64,000 bases of DNA from Serratia sp. FDAARGOS_506 (GTDB lineage Bacteria > Pseudomonadota > Gammaproteobacteria > Enterobacterales > Enterobacteriaceae). A program made the position numbers and the translations under genes. The DNA is taken from the NCBI RefSeq assembly GCF_003812745.1, contig NZ_CP033831.1, forward strand, positions 4,154,001 to 4,218,000, read 5' to 3'. A model generated the notes under the pieces. That model was not told the DNA's origin. It worked only from the letters and a program-made list of their open reading frames with translations, and ran no database searches. This document shows positions 3,038-53,608 of the stretch, in pieces (positions within the stretch are counted from its first letter, which is position 1; every line of letters starts with the position of its first letter).

Positions 3038-3122
<85 letters not shown>

Positions 3123-3311
3123 TCTTCTCTTTGTTGATGAATTTGAAGCGAAAGCTGAAATCTCATTAAACGCCGAGGGGGAGGATGAGAAGCTTCGACA
3201 AGGTTCGAGCCGAGCGTAGCGAGACAACGCGCTTTAGCGCGGTAATCCTTAGAAGCACACAACAGGAATTTAGCCCATTCCTTAAAAAATCAGTAAATCC
3301 ATGAATACCAT
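3123..3311 (+). repeat. Spacer between tRNA-Tyr genes: diverged copy of the downstream tRNA-tail repeat
   Basis: The 189-nt spacer contains GGATGAGAAGCTTCGAC, AAGGTTCGAG and GAGACAACGCGCTT followed by AGCGCGG. These blocks recur in the 175-bp repeats after the second tRNA. The CGCGC/GCGCG hairpin is kept although the flanks have drifted, so this looks like an older copy of the same unit. Confidence 0.65.
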
Positions 3312-3380
<69 letters not shown>

Positions 3381-3396
<16 letters not shown>

Positions 3397-3805
3397 TCCA
3401 TCTATAGAAAATCCCAAACAAACTTAAAACACATCGCATCCATAATGCTCCTCATCGGGGAAGGATGAGAAGCTTCGACCAAGGTTCGAGTCTCACGCAG
3501 TGAGACAACGCGCTTCAGCGCGGCCCGCAGGGTGAGGCGCGCAGCGACGAATCATCCTTCCCCCACCACCATCCCTTTATAGAAAATCCCAAACAAACTT
3601 AAAACACATCGCATCCATAATTCTCCGCACCGGGGAAGGATGAGAAGCTTCGACCAAGGTTCGAGTCTCACGCAGTGAGACAACGCGCTTCAGCACGGCC
3701 CGCAGGGTGAGGCGCGCAGCGACGAATCATCCTTCCCCCACCACCATCTCTTGCAAAAACTCCCTAAACCGACTTAAAGCACATCACATCCAATGCTCTC
3801 GCATC
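3381..3805 (+). repeat. 175-bp tandem repeats, each starting with the tRNA-Tyr 3' end (rtT-like)
   Basis: The 16-nt tRNA tail (CCTTCCCCCACCACCA) occurs at 3381-3396 (in the real tRNA), 3556-3571 and 3731-3746, an exact 175-bp period. Units at 3381-3555 and 3556-3730 are nearly identical, including the hairpins TCTCACGCAGTGAGA and CGCGCTTCAGCGCG. A partial third copy fades out near 3805. E. coli tyrT is known to be followed by about three 178-bp repeats with the same organisation, giving rtT RNA and the small Tpr ORF. Processing of the tails as tRNA 3' ends, or release of a small RNA per unit, is inferred. Confidence 0.85.
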
Positions 3806-4614: not shown

Positions 4615-5421
4615 ATGAAGTTTGTCTCTTTTAATATCAATGGACTGCGCGCGCGTCCGCATCAGCTGGCGGCAATTATCGAACAGCACCAGCCCGACGT
4701 GATCGGTCTGCAGGAAACCAAAGTTCACGACGACATGTTCCCGCTGGAAGAAGTCAGCCAGCATGGCTATCACGTGTTCTATCACGGGCAAAAAGGCCAT
4801 TACGGCGTGGCACTGCTGACCAAAGCGGAGCCTCTGGCCGTGCGCCGCGGCTTCCCGACCGATGAAGAAGACGCTCAGCGTCGCATCATCATGGCCGATC
4901 TGGCAACGCCACAGGGCACGCTGACGGTGATCAACGGCTACTTCCCACAAGGTGAAAGCCGCGACCACCCGATCAAATTCCCAGCTAAAACACGCTTTTA
5001 TCAGGATCTGCAAAACTACCTGGAGCAGCAGCTGTCGGCGGAATCCCCGGTGTTGATCATGGGTGACATGAACATCAGCCCGAGTGATTATGACATCGGC
5101 ATCGGCGAAGACAGCCGTAAACGCTGGTTGCGCACCGGCAAGTGTTCCTTCTTGCCGGAAGAGCGCGAATGGATGGACCGCCTGCTGAACTGGGGCCTGG
5201 TGGACACCTACCGCCACACCAACCCGGGGCGCAACGACGAATTCTCGTGGTTCGACTACCGCTCCAAAGGGTTCGACGACAACCGCGGCCTACGTATCGA
5301 TCTGCTGCTGGCCAGCACCCCGCTGGCTTCACGCTGCATCGCCACCGGCATCGATTACCAAACCCGCGGTATGGAGAAACCTTCCGACCACGCGCCTGTC
5401 TGGGCAGAATTTACGCTGTAA
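4615..5421 (+). CDS. xthA: Exodeoxyribonuclease III (AP endonuclease)
   Basis: A 268-residue enzyme, the same length as E. coli XthA. It cuts DNA at abasic sites and degrades 3' ends in base-excision repair. Active-site residues are in place: Asn7, Glu34 in LQETK, the GDMN motif, and the C-terminal SDHAPVW His259. The start at 4615 gives [10 protein letters not shown] as in E. coli; an in-frame start at 4597 would only add six residues. A strong terminator follows at 5430, so it is probably a single-gene unit despite nudG starting 45 bp on. Confidence 0.97.
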
Positions 5422-6185: not shown

Positions 6186-8107
6186 TCACTCTTCTCCTGC
6201 GCCTTACCGGCGCTTTTCCTGCGTTTTTTGCCTCCGCTGGAGGGCGGCGGCGGCAATCCACGAAACGCCATGCTCGCCCGGCTCTGCTTGGCCTGATAAA
6301 TCAGCTCCTGCAGCGTGCCGACCAACGGCTGCATAAAGTCCTGATAGCGGCAGGATTTCTCGCTGATTTGCGTCAGCGTGGCTTCCCAGTTGGCCGTCAT
6401 ATCAGGACGCGCAGCAAGATCAGGCAGCGAATGAATCAACGCGCGCCCGGTTTCGCTGGAGTGAATATAGCGTCCCTTCTTGTACAGAAACGCCCGCTTG
6501 AACAGCAATTCGATGATCCCCGCTCGCGTCGCTTCCGTTCCTAAACCATCGGTCGCCCGCAGGATTTTCTTTAACGCTTTATCTTGTACGAATCGCGCGA
6601 TGCCGGTCATAGCCGACAGCAGACTGGCATCGGTAAACGGCCGCGGCGGCTGCGTCTGGCGCTCCACCACTTCACCGCGTTCGCACAATAGCTCATCATC
6701 TTTGGCCACTACCGGCAGCGGCGCGCCTTCGTTTTCCTCGTCGCGCTCCTTGCTGCCCAGCAGCGTGCGCCAGCCGGCTTCCGCCAGGAAACGCGCCTTA
6801 GCGACAAATTTGCCGCCGGCGATATCCAGCTCGATCACGCATTTGCGGAACACCGCATCCGGACAAAACTGCATCAGATACTGGCGCGCCACCAGCCCAT
6901 ACACGTTCCGTTCATCCTGCGTCAGATTCACCTTGCCGGCACGGGCGGTGGGGATGATGGCATGGTGCGCATCGACCTTTTTATCGTCCCAGCAGCGGTT
7001 GCGGCGATCGCTGTCGATCACCGGCTGCGGATACAGCTCGGGTTGGTGCACGCTGATGGCGTTCAGCACCGCGTGGCGGCCGGCAAAATGCTCTTCCGGC
7101 AGATAGCGGCAGTCGGAACGCGGATAGGTGATCAATTTGTGGGTTTCGTACAGCCGCTGGCAAACGTCCAGCACCTGTTGCGCGCTGAGGTTGTAGCGCC
7201 GGGCCGCCTCGATTTGCAGCGTGGAGAGCGAGAATGGCAACGGTGCGGTATCTGATTCCCGTTTATCATTATAGGCCGTGACCAGGGCCGGCTGGCCCTC
7301 GATGCGCTTGACCACGTGCTCAGCCAACGGCCGGTGCAGCAAACGCCCCTCTTCATCCTGATAAGGTTCGCAGGAGTCGCTGGGTTGCCACAGCGCCACG
7401 AAGCGTTCTTCTTTCGGCGTGACGATGTGCGCTTTGACCTCAAAGAAGTCTTTTGGCACGAAGTTTTCAATCTCTTCGTCGCGGCGCACCACCAATCCGA
7501 GCACTGGCGTCTGCACTCTGCCCACCGACAGCACGCCGTCGTAACCGGCGTTGCGGCCCAGCAGCGTATAAGCGCGGGTCATATTGATGCCGTACAGCCA
7601 GTCGGCGCGCGAACGCGCCAACGCAGACACACACAGCGGAATGAAATCACGGTTGTCGCGCAGGCGTTCGACCGCACGTTCTACCGCCTGCGGGTTGAGA
7701 TCGTTGATCAAACAGCGGCGCACCTTCTGACGCTTCTCCGCCGTCAAATCCAGGTAGTCCAGCACCTCATCCACCAGCAGTTGCCCTTCGCGATCCGGGT
7801 CACCGGCGTGAACCACTTCATCGGCTTCGAGCAGCAACTTTTTAATGGCGTTGAGCTGTTTGCTGACCGAAGGCCGCGGCTGCAAGCGCCATTTTTCGGG
7901 AATAATCGGCAGATCCGCCAACGACCAGCGCGCATAGCGGCTGTCATAGGCGTCAGGCTGGGCCTGTTCCAACAGGTGACCGACGCACCAGGTCACCACG
8001 TCGTTGTTGCCGCAGGCGATATAGCCGTCGCCACGGCGGTGCGGCTTGGGCAAGACGTCGGCAATGGCGCGCGCCAAACTCGGTTTCTCGGCTATGAACA
8101 GTCGCAT
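6182..8107 (-). CDS. topB: DNA topoisomerase III
   Basis: A 641-residue type IA topoisomerase that decatenates DNA and acts with RecQ on recombination and replication intermediates. It has an N-terminal Toprim domain ([15 protein letters not shown], acidic triad in DPDREGQLL), the catalytic Tyr in LITYPRSD, and the topoisomerase core after it. A basic, Gly/Ser/Lys-rich tail replaces zinc fingers, as in other TopB proteins. The ATG at 8107 overlaps the TAA stop of selU by one base. E. coli TopB is ~653 residues, so it is full length. Confidence 0.97.
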
Positions 8108-25970: not shown

Positions 25971-26507
25971 CGCCCCAACGGACCTCGCGTTAAACTGTCA
26001 TGCTAATGAAAAAGAGCTGACCGCCGACGTCGCGGTTTTTGGCGTGGGATTAAAAGAAGCCAGCGCAAGGCTGGCATGAAAACTGGAAGCAATGTGAGCA
26101 ATGTCGTGCCGGTTCGGGGGGCACAGAAGGAGACAACCCTTTTCCCCTTACCGGTGAAAAAATGATAATACGTCTCATTACCAAATGTAAAGTCATTTCC
26201 CTGTGCAACTTTTACCCTTGGGGAGGATATCAGCCGTGAGCCGTTCTCCAGCGTTGATACAGCCGCCCTGTCCCCCACCAATAGCCATAGAAAAATATTC
26301 AGCCCCGCCCACAACATCCTATTATGGTGCAAAGACCGCCGAGCGTTCGCTCGCCAACCGACCCCGCGAGAGAAAAGGAGTTCCAGGCTAACGCGGAAAT
26401 AAAGCCGTTCTTGTGTTTAATTCTCATTTAGCGATCGGGTGATATATACCCAGTGGATTTTAAATTACGATGCCGCCGCGTTTGCCCGGCATCATCAGGA
26501 GGCATTA
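25971..26507. other. Gene-poor interval after the OrtT-like gene
   Basis: 537 bp. A 109-codon minus-strand frame at 26003-26332 has unconvincing composition, no ribosome site and no family match. No repeat or terminator stands out. Confidence 0.45.
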
Positions 26508-37688: not shown

Positions 37689-38219
37689 ATGTTGCAATTC
37701 TTTAACCGCTGTTCACAAGGACGCGGTGCTTGGCTGCTGATGGCCCTGACAGCGTTGGTGTTGGAACTGGTCGCGCTCTATTTCCAGCACGTTATGCTGC
37801 TGCAGCCCTGCGTCATGTGCATTTACGAGCGTTGCGCCCTGTTCGGCATCCTCGGCGCTTCACTGGTGGGCGCCATCGCGCCGAAAACCCCGCTGCGCTA
37901 CGCGGCGATCTTGCTGTGGATTTACAGCGCCTGGGAAGGCGTACAGCTGGCATGGAAGCACACCATGATCCAGTTGCACCCTTCTCCGTTCAATACCTGC
38001 GACTTTTTCGTCAGCTTCCCTTCGTGGCTGCCGCTGGATAAATGGCTGCCGGCGGTATTCCACGCCTCCGGCGACTGCTCCGTGCGCCAATGGCAATTCC
38101 TGACGTTGGAAATGCCACAGTGGCTGGTCGGCATCTTCGGCGCCTACCTGCTGGTGGCGCTGATTGTGCTGATCGCACAATTTGTTCGCCCACGTCGCCG
38201 CGACCTGTTCGGCCGCTGA
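37689..38219 (+). CDS. dsbB: DsbB, disulfide-bond oxidoreductase of the inner membrane
   Basis: A 176-residue four-helix membrane protein that reoxidises DsbA and passes electrons to quinone. Both cysteine pairs sit at the E. coli positions: Cys41/Cys44 (CVMC) and Cys104/Cys130 (NTCDF, GDCS). The start at 37689 gives the E. coli-like [18 protein letters not shown]; the open frame extends to 37662 without support. A strong terminator follows. Confidence 0.97.
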
Positions 38220-38232
38220 TAGGTAAACAAAC

Positions 38233-38264
38233 AAAAAACGGCGCCGGAAGGCGCCGTTTTTTTA
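38233..38264 (+). terminator. Terminator after dsbB
   Basis: Stem AAAAAACGGCGCC/GGCGCCGTTTTTTT with a GGAA loop. The A-run on the left lets it also serve the minus-strand small ORF ending at 38299. Confidence 0.92.
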
Positions 38265-38298
38265 GGGTATTGCGGTCAAATTCAGAGGTAACCCCACT

Positions 38299-38370
38299 TC
38301 ATGTGTGTGTAAGGAAATAAACGAGCACAATCAGCACTCCAGCCACGGCAAACAGACGGATCATTTTCAT
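38299..38370 (-). CDS. Possible 23-residue membrane peptide
   Basis: ATG at 38370 on the minus strand encodes MKMIRLFAVAGVLIVLVYFL plus THT, a basic start followed by one hydrophobic helix. This layout resembles small stress or type I toxin-like peptides, and the dsbB terminator lies just beyond its stop. The ribosome site is weak (GAGAG about 9 bases upstream). No homologue is recognised. Confidence 0.35.
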   Translation of the reverse strand: MKMIRLFAVAGVLIVLVYFLTHT

Positions 38371-38595
38371 TGTTATACTCTCGAGCATGCGGGAGAGTGG
38401 CCAAATTACCCAACTTATCGTTTAAAAAGAAGCATTCCGGTTCGGTTAAGCGCGTAATTTACATAACATTAAACTTCTGCGATATCGTCGGGCAAAAACA
38501 GGCGGCGCCAGCGCTTTCCTTACGGCCTTCGGGCAGCAATAAATTACCGTTACTTATGAACCGCTGCGTCTTTGTCACATTCAGAGCACAATATT
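38371..38595. other. Interval upstream of the sRNA candidate
   Basis: 225 bp, part of a 522-bp gene-free gap. The 81-codon plus-strand frame at 38370-38615 lacks a ribosome site and family resemblance and is not called. Confidence 0.4.
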
Positions 38596-38619
38596 TTGGT
38601 GAAGTTTGCCTATAAAATC

Positions 38620-38702
38620 CTTATAGTATCGGCAAAGTGAGTATTACCGATTTCCCTGGTGTTGTTGTGTGTCTTGCCCCTCATCTTTGCAGGGGCTTTT
38701 TT
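38620..38702 (+). ncRNA. Candidate small regulatory RNA with an ArcZ-like seed
   Basis: GATTTCCCTGGTGTTG at 38649-38664 is identical, as I recall the E. coli sequence, to the conserved seed at the 5' end of processed ArcZ. It is followed by a GU-rich single-stranded stretch and a strong terminator GCCCCT/AGGGGC (38676-38696) with a T-tract to 38702. The GTTGTGTGTCTTGCCC stretch also recalls the 3' part of RprA. Possible -10 elements are TATAAA at 38611 and TATAGT at 38622, giving an RNA of about 70-85 nt. No ORF overlaps. The true arcZ normally lies beside arcB, which is not here, so this would be a second ArcZ-type RNA. Confidence 0.6.
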
Positions 38703-38892
38703 CCTTCCCCCCTCACTGACGAACACGCCTGTTTATCCAGAAATCCCGCTCACCGTTCGCGCACTAATGATTAAAATCATTCGCGATTCTTTCCTTATCC
38801 TAATGACGTTTTGATTTTCACTCTTTCCTTTAGTGAGCCAGGCCCTGTCTTTGGCTGACTACAGCACGTCAATGATATCAAGGACACGACCT

Positions 38893-39654
38893 ATGCCGGA
38901 TACCGCATTGCCCCCTGCATCTCAGCGCCCCCTTCTGCGCCGCCTGCTGCTTAAAGCCGGGAAAAGATTCCTGCGCTGGAACGGCGAGTTTCAGACCCGC
39001 CATTCGCTAATCTCCACCACACCGCAGATTGGTAATCATGAATTTAACTGGGTCACGACGCTGGAAGCCCATTGGCCTGCGATTCGGGAGGAGTTGGATC
39101 GGCTGTTGGAGCATCCGGAGGATATTCCCGCGTTCCACCAAATATCACCGGATCAGAAACGCATCTCTAAAGGGGATAACTGGAAAACTTTCGGGCTGTT
39201 TGTCTACGGGCAGCGGGTTGATGAGAACTGCGCCATTTGCCCGCGCACCGCACAGGCGGTCAGCGCGATCCCCGGCATGCGTACCGCGATGTTTTCGATC
39301 CTCAAACCGCACTACCACATCGTGCCCCACAAAGGCCCGACCCGTGCCGTGGTGCGAGCGCATCTGGGATTGATCGTGCCAAAAGATCGGGAAAAGCTTT
39401 GGATCCGCGTTGACGATCAGATCCTGCACTGGGATGAAGGCAAGGTAATTCTGTTTGATGATTCCTACGAGCACGAGGTCCGCAACGACACCGACGAGCT
39501 GCGTGCGGTGCTGTTTCTCGATATCGACCGGCCGATGGACAAGGTGGGCACGGTGGTGAACAAACTGCTGTTCAGCCTGATCAAAGCCAGCCCTTATGTG
39601 AAGCAACCGTTGAAAAACCTGGCTAACTGGCACCGCCGCAACAAACAGGCGTGA
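38893..39654 (+). CDS. Aspartyl/asparaginyl beta-hydroxylase-family dioxygenase (LpxO-like)
   Basis: A 253-residue Fe(II)/2-oxoglutarate dioxygenase. The metal and co-substrate site is seen in LKPHYHIVPHKGPTR, RAHLGLIVP and DDSYEHEVRN. The family includes LpxO, which hydroxylates lipid A secondary acyl chains. Unlike LpxO no membrane helix is obvious at the N-terminus, so substrate is left open. The ATG at 38893 with AAGGAC upstream is preferred over a GTG at 38833 or ATG at 38872. It stands alone after the sRNA candidate. Confidence 0.82.
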   Translation: MPDTALPPASQRPLLRRLLLKAGKRFLRWNGEFQTRHSLISTTPQIGNHEFNWVTTLEAHWPAIREELDRLLEHPEDIPAFHQISPDQKRISKGDNWKTFGLFVYGQRVDENCAICPRTAQAVSAIPGMRTAMFSILKPHYHIVPHKGPTRAVVRAHLGLIVPKDREKLWIRVDDQILHWDEGKVILFDDSYEHEVRNDTDELRAVLFLDIDRPMDKVGTVVNKLLFSLIKASPYVKQPLKNLANWHRRNKQA

Positions 39655-39775: not shown

Positions 39776-40222
39776 TTATCTGGCCCAGTCCGGTTTGTTG
39801 AGGATATGGTCCTGCCAGTCCACCACTTCGCTCTCGCGCACCGCAATATGCCGCACCGTGATGCGCTCGCCGTGCATTGCCGCCTTGGAACCGCTCAGCA
39901 GCGGGTGCCAAGGGAACAACGGCTTGCCTTCACCGATCAGGCGATAAGCACAGGTCGGCGGCAACCAATCGAAGGTGGTGAGGTTTTCGCGCGTCAGTTT
40001 GATGCAGTCTTCTTCCAGCTCGAAGCGCCGCTCATAGTTACGGCATTGGCAGGATTTGATGTTGAGCTGGTTGCAGGCTACGTTGGTAAAATAAATCTCG
40101 TCGGTATCTTCGTCGATCAGCTTATTCAAACAGCATTGCCCGCACCCGTCGCACAGCGATTCCCACTCTTGTTCTGACATTTCCGCCAGCGTTTTCTGTT
40201 GCCAAAAAGCGAGTTGTGACAT
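39776..40222 (-). CDS. ycgN: YcgN, Cys-rich UPF0260 protein
   Basis: A 148-residue protein with [11 protein letters not shown] near residue 25 and further conserved cysteines ([16 protein letters not shown]). This is the zinc/iron-sulfur-cluster-type (YkgJ/YcgN) pattern. The sequence matches E. coli YcgN throughout. Function is unknown. It lies downstream of ycgM on the same strand, in the conserved ycgL-ycgM-ycgN neighbourhood beside minC. Confidence 0.93.
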
Positions 40223-53491: not shown

Positions 53492-53608
53492 CGTTATTTC
53501 TCCATTACTCGCGGTTAATAATGGCACGCCCCTGCCACAGGGCTCCGCACAAATGCGCGGACGTCCGGCCGTACCGTAAGTGATGTGGCCCACGCGCAGA
53601 TCGCAGGC

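Follow-up and report, generated by a model that had tools for sequence, protein, structure and literature searches.

The region between dsbB and a β-hydroxylase gene in Serratia sp. FDAARGOS_506 contains a short segment that reads like the seed of the small RNA ArcZ, and it raises the question of which RNA, if any, this segment belongs to. ArcZ is an oxygen-responsive RNA, and its gene adjoins arcB. There is no arcB at this site, as the initial annotation of the 64,000-nucleotide stretch (to be referred to as the window) had pointed out, and the segment was proposed there to belong to a paralogue of ArcZ or to a new small RNA with an RprA-like 3′ part.

The analysis reported here indicates with good confidence that the segment is part of a real small RNA gene, located at 38635-38702 on the + strand (RNA A). 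On the comparisons made here, this gene is separate from both arcZ and rprA, and its product is one of several sibling RNAs, not a 'second' ArcZ. RNA A is probably a trans-acting, Hfq-type small RNA that has its own promoter and uses the ArcZ seed to act on rpoS and other targets.

Anatomy of RNA A and its surroundings

An exact copy of GATTTCCCTGGTGTTG is found at the site, and it is the sole match in the window at up to two mismatches. The mean number of matches of this type expected from shuffled windows is 0.05, and 5 of 100 shuffles had one. The seed is the same as that of the genome's own ArcZ over 15 nt. It is followed by TTGTGTGTCTT and then by a GCCCCT/AGGGGC hairpin with six T residues. 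The seed, the short linker and the terminator ending at 38702 are therefore all present as initially annotated, and the two flanking genes are confirmed by Pfam and NCBIfam (Table 1). The fold of the entire RNA A has an energy of -15.4 kcal/mol, and a weak hairpin takes up part of the seed when RNA A is folded alone. The terminator hairpin is absent from the list of a simple terminator scan, because its stem leaves a 9-base loop and the maximum in the scan is 8. The U-rich linker and the U6 tail would fit an Hfq-dependent small RNA.

Table 1. Features of RNA A, its neighbors in the window, and its siblings on contig C2 of the same genome
Feature	Position	Strand	Basis and remarks
RNA A	38635..38702	+	About 68 nt; putative 5′ end, 3′ end at the T run; conservation block
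ArcZ-type seed GAUUUCCCUGGUGUUG	38649..38664	+	16/16 columns invariant over 12 loci
U/G-rich linker UUGUGUGUCUU, RprA-like	38665..38675	+	Comparison with RprA
Terminator hairpin and six U	38676..38702	+	Fold -12.9 kcal/mol
-10 box TATAGT	38622..38627	+	14/14 columns (-30 to -17 of the seed) invariant over 12 loci; putative start site
Conserved block CACAATATTTTGGTGAAG over the -35 region	38588..38605		Alignment; 26/30 columns (-60 to -31) invariant over 12 loci
dsbB, upstream neighbor	37689..38219	+	Pfam DsbB 156.2 bits; NCBIfam DsbB equivalog 304.9 bits (cut-off 157)
Inverted repeat and T run behind dsbB	38233..38264		Sequence; in the scan, hairpin reported for the minus strand only
β-Hydroxylase gene, downstream	38893..39654	+	Pfam PF05118
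ycgN, next downstream neighbor	39776..40222	-	NCBIfam YcgN 307.6 bits (cut-off 256); synteny
Sibling B	C2:784650		Linker nearly that of RNA A, different terminator
Sibling E	C2:1549234-1549290	-	Own terminator
Sibling F	C2:1995706-1995762	-	Own terminator

The promoter scan finds no sigma-70 hexamer pair upstream of RNA A, where there is a -10-like TATAGT and no recognisable -35 hexamer. The counterpart of the block CACAATATTTTGGTGAAG in many other Serratia is CATCAATATTTTGATG in the alignment, with TGATGCATTATTGCATCA before it, and the upstream region formed by TGATGCATTATTGCATCA and CATCAATATTTTGATG is a likely candidate for a regulator site. Conserved dyads are located upstream of the -10 box (38570-38605 in the window), with TGATGCA..TGCATCA in many Serratia and an altered form in the window's group. 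Judging from the conserved -10 box, the primary RNA would be short rather than a long precursor. This transcript would start just ahead of the seed, and RNA A would be similar to ArcZ after RNase E processing, with no need for cleavage. The processed form of ArcZ has 56 nt (PMC11331407), which is similar to the length of RNA A.

The inverted repeat behind dsbB is probably the dsbB terminator and would set dsbB apart from the RNA A gene. The β-hydroxylase protein has scores of 238.6 for OlsC and 117.9 for LpxO, both under the NCBIfam cut-offs (450 and 500, respectively), and is therefore left without a specific name. Three other features of the window are found with Rfam: two tRNA genes with RtT RNA repeats (3038-3746), RyhB (26051-26113, - strand, 64.3 bits), and a KDPG-aldolase RNA motif (53499-53575, - strand, 72.3 bits).

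Predicted pairing of the seed and possible sponge function

In the mechanism proposed for RNA A, the seed UUUCCCUGGUGUUG would pair with ArcZ-type sites, most likely the one in the rpoS leader, where it would open the inhibitory hairpin, and also with further mRNAs. The RprA-like linker and the terminator would serve Hfq binding and stability. DsrA has a similar seed that pairs with rpoS, with one C fewer in this seed and a different architecture.

The ArcZ site AAGGGGAAAUCCG is retained in the rpoS leader of this genome, which contains ACAAGGGGAAAUCCGUAA. With a 60-nt piece of the leader, the duplex energies are -18.7 kcal/mol for RNA A, -18.2 for the common ArcZ, -17.1 for type C (see below), -16.6 for sibling B, -15.9 for the genome's own ArcZ, and -14.4 for both E and F. 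Shuffled seeds that are as good number, out of 300, 18 for RNA A, 43 for the common ArcZ, 33 for C, 130 for B, 63 for the own ArcZ, 12 for E, and 46 for F. The own ArcZ has an A in place of the common G before AUUUCCC, and as a result RNA A can pair one base further. The own ArcZ locus (L064, position 3000) reads CAATTTCCC, and the other enterobacterial ArcZ loci that were fetched read CGATTTCCC.

With the 171-nt rpoS leader, on the other hand, the best RNA A duplex is located off the ArcZ site, and 139 of 200 shuffled leaders are as good. Of the suggested pairing with rpoS, the retained site and the short piece, where RNA A does better than the own ArcZ, speak in its favor, but the longer leader is no better than shuffled ones. 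For the flhD leader with RNA A, 103 of 200 shuffled leaders are as good. ArcZ, E, and F can pair with flhD at about -90 to -73; the number of shuffled leaders that do as well is 48 of 200 for ArcZ, 19 for F, and 16 for E. The leaders in these comparisons were shuffled by single letters, not as pairs. The role suggested for RNA A at rpoS is based on the ArcZ site known from the literature, which is retained here, rather than on the energies.

The segment ACCAGGGAAA is found at 18 places in the genome, compared with 1 for the control. Leaving out the siblings and their neighbors, inspection by eye favors C2:1039919 as the most plausible place; it precedes the ATG of an MFS gene by 62 bases. The other places are in or before frames that were judged by eye to be spurious, and no target is claimed here.

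The seed could also function as an Hfq or sponge module, with RNA A competing with ArcZ for Hfq or for RNAs that carry an anti-seed. The invariant 14-mer exceeds the length needed for pairing with rpoS. Moreover, CAACACCAGGGAAA, a perfect 14-base complement of the seed, is located in the same genome in the 3′ UTR of a PEP_hydrolase-family gene, 20 bases behind the gene and before a terminator (L144, 1501-1514; also L337-L342 and L345). This anti-seed is a possible sponge or target. Three of the genus genomes, the own one among them, have the exact anti-seed, and four have a changed form at the same locus. However, this locus was detected in no more than these 7 of the 30 genomes of the genus that were searched, and the rpoS site is kept. 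Conservation of this sort is usually due to the function of a seed. A sponge module is therefore an unlikely explanation of RNA A, and a trans-acting RNA directed at rpoS and other mRNAs is preferred.

Relation to ArcZ and RprA, and conservation in Serratia

RNA A resembles two known RNAs. As in ArcZ (RF00081), there is a seed of 14-15 nt, UUUCCCUGGUGUUG, with a terminator close behind it. The linker ahead of the terminator, of the form UGUGUGU..CUUUGCCC, is similar to that of RprA (RF00034). The resemblance to RprA is equalled by 3 of 1000 shuffles, and by 70 of 2000 if the seed and the T run are left out. For sibling B, the corresponding numbers are 0 of 1000 and 2 of 2000. The RprA-like 3′ part that had been annotated thus appears to be real, at a modest level in RNA A and more strongly in sibling B.

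These features could mean that RNA A is RprA or ArcZ itself, duplicated or relocated. However, ArcZ lies beside arcB, has a long 5′ part before the seed, and differs in its linker and terminator, and the 5′ half of RprA has no match to speak of in RNA A. The ArcZ model (cut-off 66 bits) has no match up to an E value of 10 in 38220-38900, and the RprA score at RNA A is 25.2 bits, against a cut-off of 70. The canonical arcZ is found elsewhere in the genome (C2:901939-902044, 83.3 bits), beside arcB (NCBIfam, 1450.4 bits), as is the canonical rprA (C2:3606092-3606201, 71.6 bits), and RNA A is therefore a separate gene. An identity with ArcZ or RprA proper was rejected on the basis of the Rfam scores and these separate genes, and a duplicated or relocated copy is very improbable. 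No Rfam family is above its cut-off at RNA A, which has no name of its own, in agreement with the initial annotation.

Of the 30 genus genomes (119 genomes searched in total), 26 carry the RNA A locus (L003-L028, own genome included), with 83-100% identity, and dsbB is located upstream in all 26. The four genus genomes without the locus have 1.5-3.6 Mb, and one of them (G020) carries other copies. No match to RNA A was found in E. coli genomes by blastn, a method that is weak at 70 nt.

Invariant columns were counted over the 12 closest loci (L003-L014, the own locus and 11 relatives), with gaps scored as variable. Invariance is nearly complete between about -60 and the T run, while the distal flanks are variable. 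In addition to the columns given in Table 1, 11 of 14 are invariant in the 5′ part, 12 of 12 in the linker, and 24 of 26 in the terminator. In the flanks, the numbers are 18 of 60 (-160 to -101), 27 of 40 (-100 to -61), and downstream 1 of 50 and 3 of 48, the downstream figures being partly lowered as 3 of the 12 loci have no β-hydroxylase gene. Conservation of seed and hairpin, which had been put forward as a check on the annotation, is therefore observed in most of the Serratia genomes searched. In the individual folds of 22 A/B-like sequences, the types of terminator pairs change in step at stem positions 4-8 from the base, and these counts lean toward pairing in the terminator. A MAFFT alignment of 19 relatives gives no covariation signal, which we attribute to misaligned terminators.

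The conserved block could in principle be a terminator and a promoter remnant that make no functional RNA, as there is no recognisable -35 hexamer. However, the seed and the linker are invariant over the 12 loci, and the same seed is found with unrelated terminators at other loci, so that there is little to recommend such a remnant. Least probable of all is a function as leader or attenuator for the β-hydroxylase gene, which is on the same strand with its start codon 190 bases behind the terminator, since this gene follows in only 9 of the 26 loci and was not found in the other 17, where the RNA A block is conserved and where ycgN, on the opposite strand, follows in 15. Overall, ycgN is present in 24 of the 26 fetched stretches.

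Sibling RNAs with the same seed in bacteria, prophages, and viral contigs

The 14-mer TTTCCCTGGTGTTG is found at 7 exact places in the genome (G000), compared with 0 for the reversed control and about 0.04 expected at random by our own arithmetic. Five of them, ArcZ, RNA A, B, E, and F, are followed by a terminator, as judged from the sequence and a check of open reading frames. The remaining two are located inside a LacI-family gene and opposite the 3′ UTR of the PEP_hydrolase gene (PF09370). What stands of the 'paralogue or new small RNA' first suggested is a separate gene in which the ArcZ seed is joined to an RprA-like linker behind a conserved promoter region of its own; the description as a 'second' ArcZ does not, as there are three more siblings that end in terminators. 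No Rfam family match claims RNA A, B, E, F or the other sibling loci tested.

The flanks of sibling B vary among the loci L063, L066, and L078: in the own genome, B is near TupA-like and esterase genes, and in L078 it is followed by a gene for a molybdopterin-domain protein. Serratia oryzae (L132) has two different seed RNAs, at 4870-4926 and 6498-6547, 1.6 kb apart.

The presence of one seed at many loci is a more interesting result than RNA A alone. Type C is located directly behind an MFS gene in all 16 type-C loci compared (L111, L125, L085, L101, L084, L050 and ten more; tblastn, and PF07690 for L111), of which at least 13 are Serratia-type and one is from Rouxiella. Its terminator is built around CCAGCGTGC..GCACGCTGG, and it is probably a 3′-UTR RNA.

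For types E, F, and G, a luxR-type gene is located within the fetched 3 kb in 18 of the 21 loci compared, the others being L145 (E, own genome), L205, and L261. Autoinducer-binding regulators are recognized by Pfam in L146 (F, own genome), L164, L172, L176, and L201, and a synthase in L201. Type E is beside a luxR gene in L172, L176, and L211, whereas E of the own genome is without one. The pattern ..GTTGT..T6 occurs in 19 of 392 family genomes and 8 of 154 genera (control 0), one match (G008:C6) being the anti-seed locus. The pattern ..GTTGGYH..T6 occurs in 50 of 392 family genomes and, among the matches listed, in 23 of 154 genera (control 0), and 50 is an upper figure for its type since some short matches and one or more diverged ArcZ genes (G416) are counted in it.

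YenS of Yersinia is described in a review (PMC3493969) as a quorum-sensing small RNA of 165/105 nt that affects motility, with yenI as a target. YenS and a similar RNA of Pantoea stewartii are placed there under the control of LuxR homologues. The Hfq-dependent RNAs pPAR237/238 of P. ananatis have predicted pairing with eanI and eanR, according to PMC6749038. The luxR-linked siblings, which have a seed identical to that of RNA A, are possibly relatives of YenS, as compared by description. RNA A itself is not beside luxR, in contrast to YenS; its neighbors are dsbB and the β-hydroxylase gene or ycgN.

Copies of the seed are also found in prophages. Phage lysozyme genes are located near L086 and L067 (an S. 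liquefaciens MAG) and near L069 and L070 (G020), as identified by tblastn, and by PF00959 for L086 and L069. L069 and L070 represent one prophage seed RNA that is present twice in G020, with no difference over 100 bases. In IMG/VR, the seed is followed by T6 within 14-44 bases in 39 stretches, compared with 4 for the reversed seed. Small-RNA-like matches, defined as those outside 100-codon frames and with a terminal hairpin of -5 kcal/mol or better, make up 27 of 40 IMG/VR matches (33 distinct strings) and 0 of the 4 reversed-seed controls. The terminators of the IMG/VR matches are widely different, which suggests repeated gain of the seed. No relative of L069 was found among annotated phage records by blastn at an E value of 0.01, which speaks against its being widely distributed in sequenced phages. 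StxS of Stx phages, reported in PMC7873438 to bind rpoS at the site used by ArcZ, offers a precedent by description for phage RNAs like the seed siblings. In contrast to RNA A, StxS is processed from a late-promoter transcript.

The ArcZ seed may be a mobile regulatory word that is common to loci across Enterobacterales, a proposal for which we see the balance as even. Several unrelated host loci, with separate promoters, in an MFS 3′ UTR, or linked to luxR genes, as well as many phages or prophages would attach their own promoters and terminators to it, oxygen, quorum, and phage signals would converge on one target set, and the 3′-UTR anti-seed could act as a sponge. Within one cell, the several sibling RNAs would carry different signals to one seed. 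No description of RNA A or of the family of ArcZ-seed siblings was found in the open-access literature searched.

If several RNAs per cell, together with phage RNAs, share the ArcZ seed, they may buffer the effect of knocking out ArcZ. A target map drawn from nothing but the seed would then be ambiguous, and phages with such RNAs would be able to intervene directly in the rpoS response. The set of siblings is small and defined, and is therefore directly testable.
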